Shown here in pieces: positions 3,515 to 28,445 of a stretch of DNA of 48,949 nucleotides. Origin of the DNA: a virus. The stretch lies in the IMG/VR virus record IMGVR_UViG_3300030202_001057, positions 620 through 49,568 of that record, one strand, 5' to 3'. The notes under the pieces are model-generated. The model saw only the letters and a list, made by a program, of their open reading frames with translations. It searched no databases and was not told the origin of the DNA. Made by a program: the position numbers and the translations under genes. Numbering within the stretch: position 1 is the first letter of the stretch; every line of letters begins with the position of its first letter.

Positions 3515-6500
3515 TTATTTAGGTTTAAGCAAACGCCTGTCTAAACTCTTCTTTACACCGTCTTCAAGTTTTAAATACTCTTGTGCTAATCCATTAAGCA
3601 TTCCCGTCAGTCCTGTCCCTTCACTAGTGGGGGCAGCTTGGGGTTGTCTCTGAGGCGTTGGAGCCGAAGGTTTCATATTGCGTACAAATTTCTTTTTAGG
3701 GCTACGCTTAACTTTACGGCCTGATTCATAAGGAGACCAATACTTAAAGTCATATTCATTATTATTTAAGAACCCCTCTCCACTTCGGATACCGGCTGCA
3801 ACTAAAGCAAAGTACGGAAGAGGAGTAATAGCAGCAACATTAGCTGCACCCTTTAGTGTATTACCTTCGTTAATCGAAGCAAAAGCATTGATAACTCTGG
3901 TAGGTAACTGAAGCATACGGTTAACCATAGCAATACCCGCAAGGTTGTAGATCTGCGTGTTTTGCGGACGTTGACCACGGAGAACCTGTAAGAGGGTGGC
4001 GATGACCATCTGGTTCATGCCAAAGAACGGAACAGACATAATAGCTTCTTGTAACTCTTGCATTGGATCTCGTTGCATTTCAGCCCACATTTCATCTACA
4101 TTCTTTGAGTTTTGAAGCTGAATGAGTTTATAGTACATGTAACCAGACAGAGCGTGTGCCATCACCGCACTAGCCATAAGGCCCATACCAGCGTAACCAG
4201 CCTTACGCAATCCTCCGTAAACAGTGGATGAATACGTAGTAAGAGAGGTAGCCAAGTTAGCAAACGGACCTAAAGCACTTGCTCCAGTTGCGGGATGCTC
4301 GGACAACGAGGGTTGTTTAGCATACCTAGTAGCAGCTAAGAACATAATTTCTCTAAATGCGTTAATAACTTGTAGCTGTTTAGCTCTAATTTCTGCTCCT
4401 GAGTTATAATCAAAAGTAACATCATTTAACATTTTATCAAAAGGAATTCCTTTTTGCCTAATGTCATCTCCATACTTTCTCCACATGTGTTTAAATATAG
4501 GAGCAAGATCTTCACTAAACAATCCGTTTTTAAGCATATCCATAACTAAGTTTCTTATGTCCGCCCCTAATCCTAATTGTTTTAGATCAGCATTTAAATC
4601 CGAGTTAGAGTATTTGCTTATGTCTACTCCTTTAAACATATTGTATAAGTCATCAAAGGTAGCCACAAGTTTATCTTCTTTAGGAGAAATAAAGGTTTCA
4701 TTACCGTCTTTATCAATCATGATAGAATGTTCATCTGTCATTCGGTAAAACAATTGATCCATATCAGTAATTGCTTTTCGGACACCGAATGCTCTGTTGT
4801 GCTGAACCTGAGTATCCAAACCCGTTGAAGTAAATTTATAAATTCTTTTAATCATTTGATCAATCTTTAGAGGCTCATTACCACCTTCAGAAATACCCCT
4901 GCTATCATCTAAACCAATCTTAGATAACACAACGTTAGCTTCGTACATTAAATCTTGAGTAATAAAACCTAATCCTTGGAGCCATTCTCTAGATTCATCT
5001 TTGTTCTGTAAAACTCTAATGTTTTCTCCCATGTATTTATTCATAGCCGTTAGGTTAGCTTTAAGGCTACCAATGACAGACATTGGAGTTTCTTCCAACA
5101 TAGCAGCAAACGCCAATCTAGGACCAACGCTAACGGCTGCTCCTAATTGACCGAGTTTATTAAGCATGTTAATGAAACCAATAGATGTTGCATCTTTATC
5201 ATCCCATTTTAATGTTCCGACTCCAAGCTGATACGTCTTTTTAATGTAATTTAAAGCGTGCTTAAATTTAGTTTTTTCAGTACCAGTTAAGCCACGTTTA
5301 TTTCCCTCTTGTTGCATAAGAGAGTTTAGCATAATATCTTTATATTCAGTAGGAGATCGATTAAAATAAGTATCAATACTATTAATTAGATCGCCAATAC
5401 CAAATCCTCTCATGCCTAAAGCGTTTCCAAATACTTGACGGTCAAAGGCTTGAGCAGCTTGACCACGCATAACTGAAGTAAATATTTCAATAGGATCTAA
5501 GTTTAAGTATTTTCTAATTTCAGGAGAATCAAACATATCAGCAGTAGATAAGAATTTATCTCCAATGAAGGAATACGCACTTGATCCAAATTTCTGCATA
5601 TAACCTTCAGAAACAAGATCAGCAAGTTTATTAACTACTGAGTCTGACGTTCTCATCTGAGAAGATTGAAGTTCTTTCATTCGTTTATCTTGAATGGATT
5701 CAATCATCTTTTGCTGATTTTCAGTACGTTCCATCTGTTCGCTTATGTGTTTATTATACACTTTTATTTCTTCTTCAGATAAGATCTTTGACTTAGTTAA
5801 CTTACCACTTTTAATATCGTTTAATAGTTCTTTAAACGCTCGACTACTGTTGTTTGTAAACTTATTAACGTATTCGTTATTATAAATGTCAGCCAGTCTG
5901 GTCATGTTAATACGTGTGGGTCCGTCAATATCCGCGCCTTCAAAAGAATCTGCAAAAATAACTTTAAATAAATCTTCTTCAATTAAATCGCTTTTAACAA
6001 GTTCTCTTTCAACAAGAGATGAAATAGCATTTCGTAATAATTCTCTAGCTTGGATGCCGTCTGTACCATCGTTTCTAAATGTAGAATCAGATAGTTTAAT
6101 TGGCACAACTCCTTCAGTTTGGAGACGATCCGCGAGTTTAACATCAAACACATTGCTATCTACCTGAGCAGCAAGAATCTGTTTCCATACACCGTTTTCT
6201 GGATTAGACCACATTTCAACTAAATCAACAATACGGTTAAGAAGATTATCTAATTTAGGATCATCTAAATCAACGGTCTGACCTTGTTTTTCAGCCATGT
6301 TTGACATAAGTTTTTGCGCTCTTTGCATGGCTGCTTCTCGTCCTTGCCAACCCTTAATTTCTTTTCCGTATTTATCCCCTATACGAGGATCTCTATTCAT
6401 CGTTATTTCCCAGAACATATTAACAAATGCTTCATAGGGCGAGTAAGGAGATCCGTTTCTTCCCATACCGGGAGTAAAGTTTGCTACCTTCATATTTAAC

Positions 6501-9500
6501 AAACCACTCATTAAAGGCTCAAAGACAGCCTTTAAGTGAAGACCTAATCCCTGTATAGTAGGAAGGTTAGTGCCGAATGCGCTAGATGAAATCAATGACT
6601 TAGTATCAATGCCTTGAAGCAAGAATAAAATAGTACCGCTGAGTTTATCAGTTTCACCAAGAAGGGCAAACTTCCTAGAGCCGAACGGTTGAGCAACATT
6701 TTCTATAAGTCGTTCGGCGGTTTGCCTTGACAGTTTACCAAGTAACATACCAGAAATAATATCGGCAAACGGACTATCAACAAGTTGACCAGAACCAACT
6801 TGTTTAATCTTAGATTCCATAAAACGACTAACGGCTTCTATTTTCTTTAAGTCCGTATCAATGTTCTGAGGATAAAAGAAACCTTCATGAGTATTTTCTT
6901 CGATAATCCTATCAATACGATCAACGTCATTTTCTTCGTGCCTAAAGTTTTTCTTTGGGCCTTCATTACTAAATTCGTTAGGAGGTAAATCATCTGCAAT
7001 CTCACTAGATGTTTTACGTTTCCTAACACTCTTAGATGAACCCCTAACACCACTAAAGTCAGTAATATTAGTAAGATTTTCATCTACCATTTTACCAAAA
7101 CCAGTTGCTTCAATAAAGGTAGGTATATTAGTATCTACAAAGTCTTTATAATGGTTGTAACGAGTGATGTAATGTTTAGCCATTCTGTGACCTTCGTTTA
7201 AAAGCTTACCATCCTCGCCTTTCATAAACGCTCTTACATCGTCTCCAAGAAGAACAGCCATAGCAAACATAGGTCCAAATAATTCTAAGTTATCGATTTT
7301 TTCGGATTTTATATTACCAATTAATTCTTCTTTTCGATCCTTATAGTTAATTCTATTTTCTGGATCACCAAATATACGGCGTTCGGCTTCTAAGAACTTA
7401 TCAAAACCATCTTTTGTTTTTAACATTTCTCTAGCTCTAGTAAGGAAACCAGTCATTCCTTCTTCGCTCATTCTTTGACCAATAAGGTGACCAAGTTCTT
7501 CAAGAATAACACCCACGGCTCCAAACTCTGAGATATCTTTAAAGCTTTCTGATAAATCTTTAGCGATTCTAATTCTTCTTTCTACAGAAGCATCTGCTCG
7601 TCCTCCGCTGATGTCAGGGTCTGTTTCAACTTTGACTTCTTTTTCAAACAACTTTTGTAAAAGACCTGAGTTTGTTTTATCAGAGAATACAGCTTTAAGT
7701 AAAAGTTTATCGCTTGAGTTAATCGTTCCTTCTGCTTCAAGGTTTTGCAAAATACCTAAGAAACGACCGTGTGCTACACTTTGACCGTTAAAGAAATCGT
7801 CTGAAAATACTCCGTCAATGCTGTTTAAACCAGAACCCTGCTCGTTGCCTTCAGTTCGTCGTGACATGGCGTGATTTATTTCTAATTCTACATCAAAGGA
7901 TGCTTGAGGACCACTAGGGTCTGCTGTTAACTCAACGTCGTTAACAATAAATGATGAGCTATCTTCAATATCAGCAAATGTAGTCTGTTGATCGCTTCTA
8001 GCGAATTCGGCCTCAACACTTTGAGGATTAGAGCTAATGTTCTGTTCGTTAACAAAAGTGTTCGGATCATACCGAGTGTCCGCAACCATTTTATTCCACT
8101 TTGCTTGTTTAATCTCGTCTAAAATAGGTTTAATGTTTTCGTTAAAATCTGTAATCAAATCTACAGTATCAATGATATCTTCACCACGTAAGTTACGTCG
8201 TAATGTTTCCATTCTCCTAAAGACATTAAACATACCGTCTTTAGATGTCATTAAGGGAACAAGTTCCATAGCTCTAATAAAGCTACTTTTATCTGTATTC
8301 TTAAACGAGTTAAGCCTAGCGTTATCTAATTCACCGATATCTTCAAAAATACTATCAGCTAAAATATTGTCAGCGTTATCAAAAGCAGACTTAATTGTAC
8401 CGGGAAGGTAGAATAAAAACTCAGCATCTTGGGATTTATTTCCAAAGAATACTTTACTACGATTATCTTTTTGAATCTCAACTTGCTTGTTATTCATAAT
8501 ATACTTAATCGCTTGAGTCATCATTACAGCGTTTGACCTGACTTCGCTAATAGACGTACCTCTGCTACTAAACGGATCGTGTCCTCCAATGACAGAAGAC
8601 AAGGATTTAGCAAACGGAAGTTTACCTGAAGGGTCAAGAGCATATGCAAATCTAATAGCATCAAAAAGTTTTTTGTTGCCGATAGAGTTTACAGCGTTTA
8701 ATTTTTCTACAGGCAGAAGTTTAACTCTTGCTTTACCCTTAATGTGGTGAGGTGAAGTAGGCTCACCAAACTGGTTAACAAAGACCTTATGTTTATTTGG
8801 ATCTAAAAGGCTATCTTCTGATTTATTCATAAGAAGATCTTTAATAGTCATACCCTGTTTCTTTAACCTGCGTTCAATACCGGGGAACATCTTCTTGATA
8901 TCATTTGCCACAGCTTCAGTTAAAGGCATACTACGAGTAGTTTCCTTTAAGATATAATCGTTATTGAAGTTATCAGATGCAAGGTTAGTACCCTCATCTA
9001 ACAAATCTTGAATTGTAGCCCTATCAGTTTCTTCAAACTTTCGGTATAAATCAGGATGGCGTTCTCCTAAGTAGCTGACATCGTTACCTTCAAACTTCTT
9101 ATACCAGTACTCACTAAATACGGCAATCTCAAGAGAAGTAACATCGTAGTCTTCTCCTAATAGTTTCTGAACTGCATGTCGTTTAGCGTAGTTCATAGCA
9201 TAGAGAGCTAAGTACAACGCCGCTGAGTCACCCCCAGCAAATGCTACCTTAGCATTCATTGCTATCTGAGCATCGCTGCCTTTACCGCTAACAACTTCAA
9301 CGTGACCTTCTTTAGTTAAGATTTGTCCTAAGAAAGTAGCATCATCTGCTAACCAAGCTAACAGGTTTCCTGCTTCCATATCGTTATTGTAAATAGTATG
9401 TTGAATAGCTTCTTCAACAGAAACCACTCCTTCTTTAACTGGGATGGTATCAATTGTATCGCCTTCTAAGCTATACAGGTCAGTAACTCTGTTCTTAGCG

Positions 9501-27546: not shown

Positions 27547-27666
27547 TCACTTCTTCTTTTTAACAACCTTTTTCGTCTTTTTCTTTTTCTTATCCATCAT
27601 TGCTTTTGCAGCAGCGGCTTTACCTTTAGGGGTGTAAGCGTATCTTTTTCCATTGATCTCAGGCAT
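27547..27666 (-). CDS. tiny basic protein (39 aa)
   Basis: MPEINGKRYAYTPKGKAAAA followed by a Lys-rich tail (KKKKKTKKVVKKKK). The 'GKRYAYTPKGKAAA' opening is a pattern I have seen in tiny proteins of aquatic phages. AGGTTAATT precedes the ATG. It lies between the Flp-type gene (2 nt away) and the 379-aa gene (8 nt away), so it fills the gap neatly. Confidence 0.6.
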   Translation of the reverse strand: MPEINGKRYAYTPKGKAAAAKAMMDKKKKKTKKVVKKKK

Positions 27667-27668
27667 AA

Positions 27669-27860
27669 TTAACCTCCAATAGTTCCATCAGCACTAGTGT
27701 TAAGTGCTTCAGTCATTTCCTCGAATTTAGCGGTCTGTCCATCACGGACAGCCTTAACTGCTCCAATTGAGCCAGCACCCATAACGGTGCCTAAAATCAT
27801 ATACTCAGCGGTCTGCATACCGCGTTCATCTTTTAAAAAATTCTTAATTTTATTAAGCAT
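27669..27860 (-). CDS. Flp-type (type IVb) pilin-like protein (63 aa)
   Basis: The sequence has the complete Flp prepilin plan: a short basic leader (MLNKIKNFLKDERG), Gly14 as the cleavage residue, Glu at +5 and Tyr at +6 of the mature part (G/MQTAEY), then one hydrophobic helix (about 21-38, MILGTVMGAGSIGAVKAV) and a short polar tail. Bacterial Flp pilins are cut by a prepilin peptidase and assembled by the Tad machinery; similar small proteins are frequent in Planctomycetes. No Tad genes are seen here, so it would depend on host enzymes. AGAGGAAAAG precedes the ATG, which overlaps the 59-aa gene by 8 nt. A single-helix holin is the main alternative, but would not need the G/XXXXEY motif. 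Confidence 0.7.
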   Translation of the reverse strand: MLNKIKNFLKDERGMQTAEYMILGTVMGAGSIGAVKAVRDGQTAKFEEMTEALNTSADGTIGG

Positions 27861-28032
27861 CTTTTCCTCTTTCGATTTCTCTAATTCGTGATTCGTGATC
27901 TTCTGTTCGACGAAATATAGTCTTTAACTGTTCCGTCAAACTAGCAAGTTGAACATTCATTTTCCATAACATTCCTATAATACCAGAACCAATTAATAGT
28001 TCTACGACAGGAATAACATCCATGACAGGCAT
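27853..28032 (-). CDS. small membrane protein with coiled-coil tail (59 aa)
   Basis: MPVMDVIPVVELLIGSGIIG begins a single membrane helix (about 5-24) followed by a helical charged tail (TEQLKTIFRRTEDHESRIRE then IERGKDA). Layout matches the 67-aa protein at 3192-3395. Position between a holin candidate and the pilin-like protein suggests a role in lysis or in the host envelope. AAGGAGATAATT precedes the ATG, which lies inside the last codons of the upstream gene region. Confidence 0.6.
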   Translation of the reverse strand: MPVMDVIPVVELLIGSGIIGMLWKMNVQLASLTEQLKTIFRRTEDHESRIREIERGKDA

Positions 28033-28034
28033 AA

Positions 28035-28445
28035 TTATCTCCTTGAACTGACAGCGGACTGCCCAAAATAAAAACCAATAATAGCAATTAGGGCTGTACG
28101 CAACTCAGTAACAAGAAGGAATCCTTTTACTTCATGAAACTGTTCCGTAAATAATCCAAAGATACCGCCAAACTCACCTTCGACCCACGTAGGGATACCA
28201 AAGAAGGAGAGAATAAAGGGCGCACCAACCATTGCAAACAATACTGTAATAACAATAACTCGTCGTACCCACGTACCACCTGCTCCACCTCGTGCGGAAG
28301 CACGGTCAGCGGAGTCATCAGCAGCAGCTTGGGTCTTGATAGCCAACTCCGCAAGAGCCGCTTGTCGTTCTACCATAGAACCAATTAATTTAAAGATAAA
28401 ACCGGAGAGACCTCCGCCAATAAGGGACAGCAACTCAATAGGCAT
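28035..28445 (-). CDS. two-helix membrane protein, holin candidate (136 aa)
   Basis: A Gly-rich start (MPIELLSLIGGGLSGFIFKL) and a charged region (about 25-60) precede a strong membrane helix at about 63-84 (VIVITVLFAMVGAPFILSFF) and a second near the C-terminus (about 115-133, LRTALIAIIGFYFGQSAV), then a short basic tail SSRR. Size and layout are typical of phage holins and of 3TM holin-like proteins of marine phages. No endolysin is seen in the window, so the lysis role is inferred. Confidence 0.6.
   Translation of the reverse strand: MPIELLSLIGGGLSGFIFKLIGSMVERQAALAELAIKTQAAADDSADRASARGGAGGTWVRRVIVITVLFAMVGAPFILSFFGIPTWVEGEFGGIFGLFTEQFHEVKGFLLVTELRTALIAIIGFYFGQSAVSSRR

Follow-up and report, generated by a model that had tools for sequence, protein, structure and literature searches.

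Virulent-type phages that are otherwise unrelated carry a small gene for a pilin of the Flp (type IVb/Tad) class in common, and this gene is under purifying selection. The case from which we started is a minus-strand ORF of the window, by which we mean the whole 48,949-nt stretch of viral DNA analyzed here (IMG/VR record IMGVR_UViG_3300030202_001057, positions 620 to 49,568). Judged by its sequence and that of its homologs, the ORF is a genuine Flp-type prepilin (Table 1). Two scans of IMG/VR yielded 20 phage loci or contigs with such a pilin.

Results

The window is phage DNA, as it encodes a T7-type head-tail connector (PF12236, 8e-50; phrog_449), a major head protein, a head assembly protein, the terminase large subunit and tail proteins. 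A 72.9-kb contig whose pilin is 98% identical to that of the window additionally carries genes for a phage RNA polymerase and a primase/helicase. No integrase was seen in the window in a non-exhaustive look, and three of its late proteins are very large.

Table 1. Coordinates of the features discussed, in the window unless a contig or locus is named.
Feature	Position	Strand	Remarks
Flp-type (type IVb/Tad) prepilin	27669..27860	-	63 aa, stop codon included: MLNKIKNFLKDERGMQTAEYMILGTVMGAGSIGAVKAVRDGQTAKFEEMTEALNTSADGTIGG
Leader peptide, residues 1-14	27819..27860	-	sequence MLNKIKNFLKDERG; cleavage predicted after Gly14
Mature pilin, residues 15-63	27672..27818	-	Glu19 codon 27804-27806, Tyr20 codon 27801-27803
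Ribosome-binding-like GAGG	27866..27869	-	just upstream of the pilin ATG; identical upstream bases in L002-L004
59-aa membrane and coiled-coil protein	27853..28032	-	8-base overlap with the pilin start
136-aa membrane protein, phrog_38283 (function unknown)	28035..28445	-	holin candidate; conserved irrespective of the presence of the pilin
Small basic ORF	27547..27666	-	downstream of the pilin; in pilin-less relatives, such an ORF lies directly beside the membrane/coiled-coil gene
Very large late protein, 4609 aa	3515-17344		
Very large late protein, 1373 aa	17391-21512		no match in the PHROG scan
Very large late protein, 2381 aa	29867-37012		cysteine-rich
Second Flp/TadE case	L155:5010-5168 and 6097-6513; L176:5974-6156; L177:5974-6156		
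TadE-like	G388:C1:27082-27204 and G389:C1:74981-75103		
Terminase-like genes of contig G377	L171:4483-6141 and L164:10917-12614		two different genes
T4-type terminase match	G388:C1:89606-91189		183-kb contig; runs through one internal TGA

Translation of the pilin ORF gave a basic leader, Gly14, Met15, a Glu at position +5 (Glu19) and a Tyr at +6 (Tyr20), numbered as in Caulobacter, followed by one long hydrophobic helix, exactly as a preliminary description of the window had stated. The leader is short and, as a sequence feature, ends in the Gly that is invariant in the phage homologs; likewise, Met15, Gln16, Glu19 and Tyr20 were identical in every aligned sequence from phages and close relatives. 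The 63-aa protein is predicted to have a single long N-terminal helix and to be devoid of a globular domain, with helices placed at residues 12-39 and 43-53 in a model of low confidence (mean pLDDT only 66-69). When we applied a loose motif rule (a basic leader, G/A plus four residues plus E plus Y/F/L, then a hydrophobic stretch), the pilin ORF was the only one to comply among the 121 window ORFs of 45-100 aa. At the other phage loci, 9 of 3,274 ORFs in the same size range did so, just two of them outside the pilin family. Since 20 phage homologs retain the motif and the bacterial homologs adjoin Tad loci, its occurrence is far beyond chance.

Searches with family models of Pfam, NCBIfam and PHROG gave no family above cut-off. 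The Flp search proposed in the preliminary description thus failed in its literal form, as PF04964 (Flp_Fap), the curated model, did not match the pilin; this miss reflects a gap in model coverage, because the relatives encoded at Tad loci fail Pfam as well. Homology to Tad-locus Flp pilins was nonetheless found: profile comparison linked the pilin family to a more distant planctomycete Flp group (E 1.4e-14) and to canonical Flp pilins (E 9.7e-10). PF14029 (DUF4244) matched weakly, below its curated cut-off, over residues 6-25, a trait common to the bacterial relatives. The preliminary description regarded two outcomes as speaking against a pilin, namely a lack of Flp matches combined with freely varying motif residues, or a clear holin match. 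The motif residues did not vary, and there was no match to a named holin family in PHROG, Pfam and NCBIfam. A PDB sequence search with the family profile and a fold search with the low-confidence structure model yielded nothing useful. Among 50,697 GenBank phage records there were only insignificant matches to the pilin, in keeping with the earlier remark that no standard T7-like gene of this type is known, and an approximate consensus of canonical Flp, used only as a search probe, found no match in GenBank phages. Scanning with the more distant planctomycete Flp group gave no phage copies.

A scan of 84,980 bacterial and archaeal genomes uncovered two cellular relatives, with 69 and 68% identity, both from metagenome-assembled genomes of marine planctomycetes (one labeled Phycisphaerales, the other Planctomycetes bacterium TMED75); the link to Planctomycetes drawn in the preliminary description is thereby borne out. 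At both loci (L022 and L023) the relative is the second gene of a tandem Flp pair that immediately follows a Tad locus on its downstream side. In the case of L023, peptidase A24, TadE, secretin, a TadA-type ATPase and a T2SSF platform protein were confirmed by Pfam; inspection of the ORFs added CpaB and a second platform protein (the platform pair being TadB/TadC) and pointed to an identical arrangement in L022. Tandem Flp genes also occur in more distant planctomycete genomes. The planctomycete and phage proteins are nearly equal in length and agree in leader pattern, in the Gly/Glu/Tyr motif and in a C-terminal DG..GG tail, but the former sits with a Tad machine whereas the latter stands alone, at several phage loci. 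As judged from the pilin only, the hosts of these phages are probably marine Planctomycetes.

We counted at least four genomic settings of the phage pilin. The first (a) is the T7-like group of the window (L002-L005 and L019). The second (b) comprises L009 and L010, with a T7-like gene content (the type being read from ORF resemblance) and with neighbors different from those in the window: the pilin of L010 comes after ribonucleotide reductase, that of L009 follows the gene of a 3,217-aa protein and a membrane/coiled-coil gene of 96 aa. A gene similar in make-up to the 59-aa membrane/coiled-coil gene of the window precedes the pilin in L009. In the third setting (c), a 118-kb T4-like contig (L006/G375) recognizable by its tail sheath, T4-type capsid and portal, DNA polymerase and UvsX, the pilin lies within a block of small genes; L008 holds a near relative of this pilin and shares one gene with L006/G375. 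The fourth (d) consists of phages that PHROG could not classify (L011-L018, L020 and L021), where a conserved cassette directly precedes the pilin, made up of a lipoprotein of ~120 aa with hydrophobic segments and a single-helix membrane protein of ~45 aa. One 82-kb contig, G377, has two different terminase-like genes (Table 1); the record may therefore be a fusion of two phages, which calls for care in using its pilin context. In tblastn searches of the phage loci, Flp was the only Tad protein detected, and no TadE turned up in 14 entire records of pilin-bearing phages. The phage pilin would thus presumably use the machine of the host.

The closest relatives of the window were collected via the 136-aa neighbor, at 95-99% identity. 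Apart from the window itself, five contigs possess the pilin (L002-L005 and L019) and six lack it (L052, L053, L056, L059, L060 and L061), so that the ORF, sought at the same locus as the preliminary description had proposed, was recovered in only part of the related contigs. In the alignment, this is a clean presence or absence of a single gene, flanked on one side by the membrane/coiled-coil gene and on the other by a small basic gene. Contigs of 68 and 72 kb without the pilin at this locus, though possibly incomplete, had none elsewhere either. The 59-aa protein is 97-98% identical to that of the window in four pilin-bearing relatives and 61-75% identical in pilin-less ones, while the genes surrounding it vary more. 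L019 is the exception among the pilin-bearing relatives, with a pilin 72% and a 59-aa protein 64% identical to those of the window. As the 59-aa allele tracks the pilin, both genes seem to travel together. With this clean presence/absence pattern, and being under selection, the pilin gene is to be regarded as a selected accessory gene that does not belong to the core set for virion or lysis.

This bears on the idea that the protein is a virion or lysis component derived from a pilin, i.e., an accessory holin, an antiholin or a particle protein. The surroundings would suit such a function, as the pilin lies between the membrane/coiled-coil gene and late genes in the T7-like group and beside the lipoprotein and the small membrane protein in the unclassified group. 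We nevertheless consider it very unlikely: six close relatives have the same cassette without a pilin, other positions occur (after ribonucleotide reductase in L010, in the small-gene block of the T4-like contig), and such a component would have no need to keep the residues for pilin processing and assembly. The earlier suggestion of a pilin that becomes part of the envelope and serves lysis or release is disfavored likewise, because the six relatives retain the 136-aa neighbor without it and other phages carry it away from the cassette. The positions given in that description for a membrane protein and a membrane/coiled-coil protein beside the pilin were correct, but the label 'holin' for the former is unproven, its PHROG family being one of unknown function.

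Purifying selection is evident from a median pN/pS of 0.22 among pairs of phage pilins, at a pS of about 0.76. Synonymous sites were near saturation in most comparisons between phages as well as in those with the host copies, which indicates that the host-to-phage transfer is old and rules out a recent one; the base composition of the pilin gene is close to that of its own phage in most contigs. Mean identity between phages was highest in residues 15-41 (90%), compared with 54% in the leader and 67% in the C-terminal part, the most constrained portion thus being the helix that forms the subunit contacts in the Caulobacter Tad pilus. We also considered whether surface residues evolve faster in phages, but dropped the idea, since the C-terminus is more variable everywhere. 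Small size and the lack of a significant PHROG or NCBIfam match might make one think of a functionless recent passenger or an assembly artifact. Such an explanation is hardly credible: the gene occurs on twenty contigs and in several genomic contexts, its synonymous change is near saturation, its pN/pS is low and its base composition mostly phage-like, and these data already refute the explanation unless the contigs are wrong. In trees, the phage pilins group with host copy B to the exclusion of host copy A (support 100/99). Resolution inside the copy-B group is poor, and a single phage clade was neither rejected (p-AU 0.061) nor demonstrated; the pilin is too short for its tree to allow a choice between one and several transfers from host to phage.

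A different, unrelated Flp pilin, together with a TadE-like protein above the Pfam cut-off, was found in three large marine phage contigs of 77, 94 and 183 kb (Table 1). On the 77-kb contig, both genes are near one end, where a tmRNA and two tRNAs are encoded as well. Because they share the stretch around the pilin, the 94- and 183-kb contigs were counted as one lineage. On the 183-kb contig, the internal TGA in the T4-type terminase match is perhaps due to an insert, an error or a recoded stop. These contigs suggest that Tad subunits were recruited by phages on more than one occasion.

Discussion

Our best reading, to which we can lend only tentative confidence, is that the phage pilin enters or jams the Tad pili of the host during infection and so limits superinfection or the loss of progeny. 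The gene for an Flp major pilin would have been captured from the Tad locus of a planctomycete and would then have spread among unrelated phages of lytic type, probably infecting the same hosts. During infection, the prepilin would enter the inner membrane and would be cut after Gly14 by the CpaA/TadV peptidase of the host. The mature phage subunit may then join host Flp in the Tad machine, giving rise to mixed or stalled pili. A pilus that is a phage receptor in other bacteria would thus be altered or removed, with consequences for competing phages as well as for the phage's own released progeny, which would not be lost on infected cells and debris. In effect, the pilin would be a receptor-control gene comparable to T5 Llp or to the pilus inhibitors of Pseudomonas prophages, acting via a look-alike subunit. 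Superinfection-exclusion genes are often early genes, and the position of the pilin among late genes in the window speaks against this reading.

In Caulobacter, the Tad pilin has a 14-residue leader, and its Glu19 and Tyr20 are essential for assembly while dispensable for expression or processing; Tad pili serve as phage receptors (PMC11067988). Like the phage pilin, Caulobacter PilA (PDB 8u1k, 8u2b) combines a leader of 14 residues with Glu19-Tyr20 in a single-helix subunit without a globular domain, and it is the receptor of phage PhiCb5 (PMC11067988); it is distant in sequence, however, with no direct match by family profile or fold search. Retention of Glu19 and Tyr20, taken together with their assembly-only role in Caulobacter, argues for an assembly-competent subunit, i.e., for a phage protein that may have been selected to assemble, and not for a decoy. 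A protein that competes for the prepilin peptidase or the platform, titrating it and halting pilus production while staying outside the filament, is accordingly an improbable alternative. The preserved leader and Gly14 would be expected of such a protein, as would its nature as a small membrane protein within a cassette of membrane genes, but a pure decoy should have lost the Glu19 and Tyr20 that are invariant here and matter for assembly, not for processing (PMC11067988).

Retention of every assembly residue would fit the maintenance of working pili just as well as their remodeling. The phage could supply fresh pilin that keeps the Tad pili of the host working after host gene expression has stopped; infected cells would then remain anchored to particles or to one another and would burst in the vicinity of new hosts. 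All residues thought to be required for assembly are kept, and the mature helix is nearly invariant and close to host copy B, as would befit a fully functional subunit. Considering that the pilin is missing from several very close relatives, we regard maintenance as rather unlikely. As to the preferred reading, in which the phage pilin interferes with host pili, its more specific form is somewhat doubtful in our view: unrelated lytic phages would share a captured, assembly-competent pilin that polymerizes together with the Flp of the host and in this way rebuilds or caps the receptor filament. If true, this would be receptor control by subunit mimicry, as opposed to motor inhibition or porin masking.

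Phage proteins with a comparable presumed purpose, namely blocking a receptor against superinfection or progeny loss, are known. Phages of Pseudomonas put type IV pili out of action with the proteins Tip, Aqs1 and Zip (PMC11656802), and Llp of T5 blocks the phage's own receptor, presumably cutting the loss of phage on debris (PMC4728585). These proteins bind PilB, the PilZ-PilB complex or FhuA, and none of them is a look-alike pilus subunit. A phage-borne Flp gene as such is not unheard of, as prophages with an annotated Flp pilin have been listed for Vibrio harveyi (PMC12482185) and for Sinorhizobium meliloti (PMC12429752). The phages concerned are temperate, unlike the lytic-type pilin carriers described here, and these reports contain no evident test of selection or of sharing across phage types. 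In the open-access literature searched we found no report of Flp in virulent-type phages, common to T7-like and T4-like ones and under selection.

Tad pili are widespread adhesion and phage-receptor filaments, and to our knowledge little is known about the phages of marine Planctomycetes. The Flp and TadE-like pseudopilin genes that the large marine phages have of their own would be an independent second case of subunit mimicry. A pilin that is found again and again in T7-like and T4-like phages, that comes and goes as a single gene and that has kept all its assembly residues points to host pili as a battleground in a group that has received little study. The phage pilin also offers an easily tested protein and a possible host marker for these phages.
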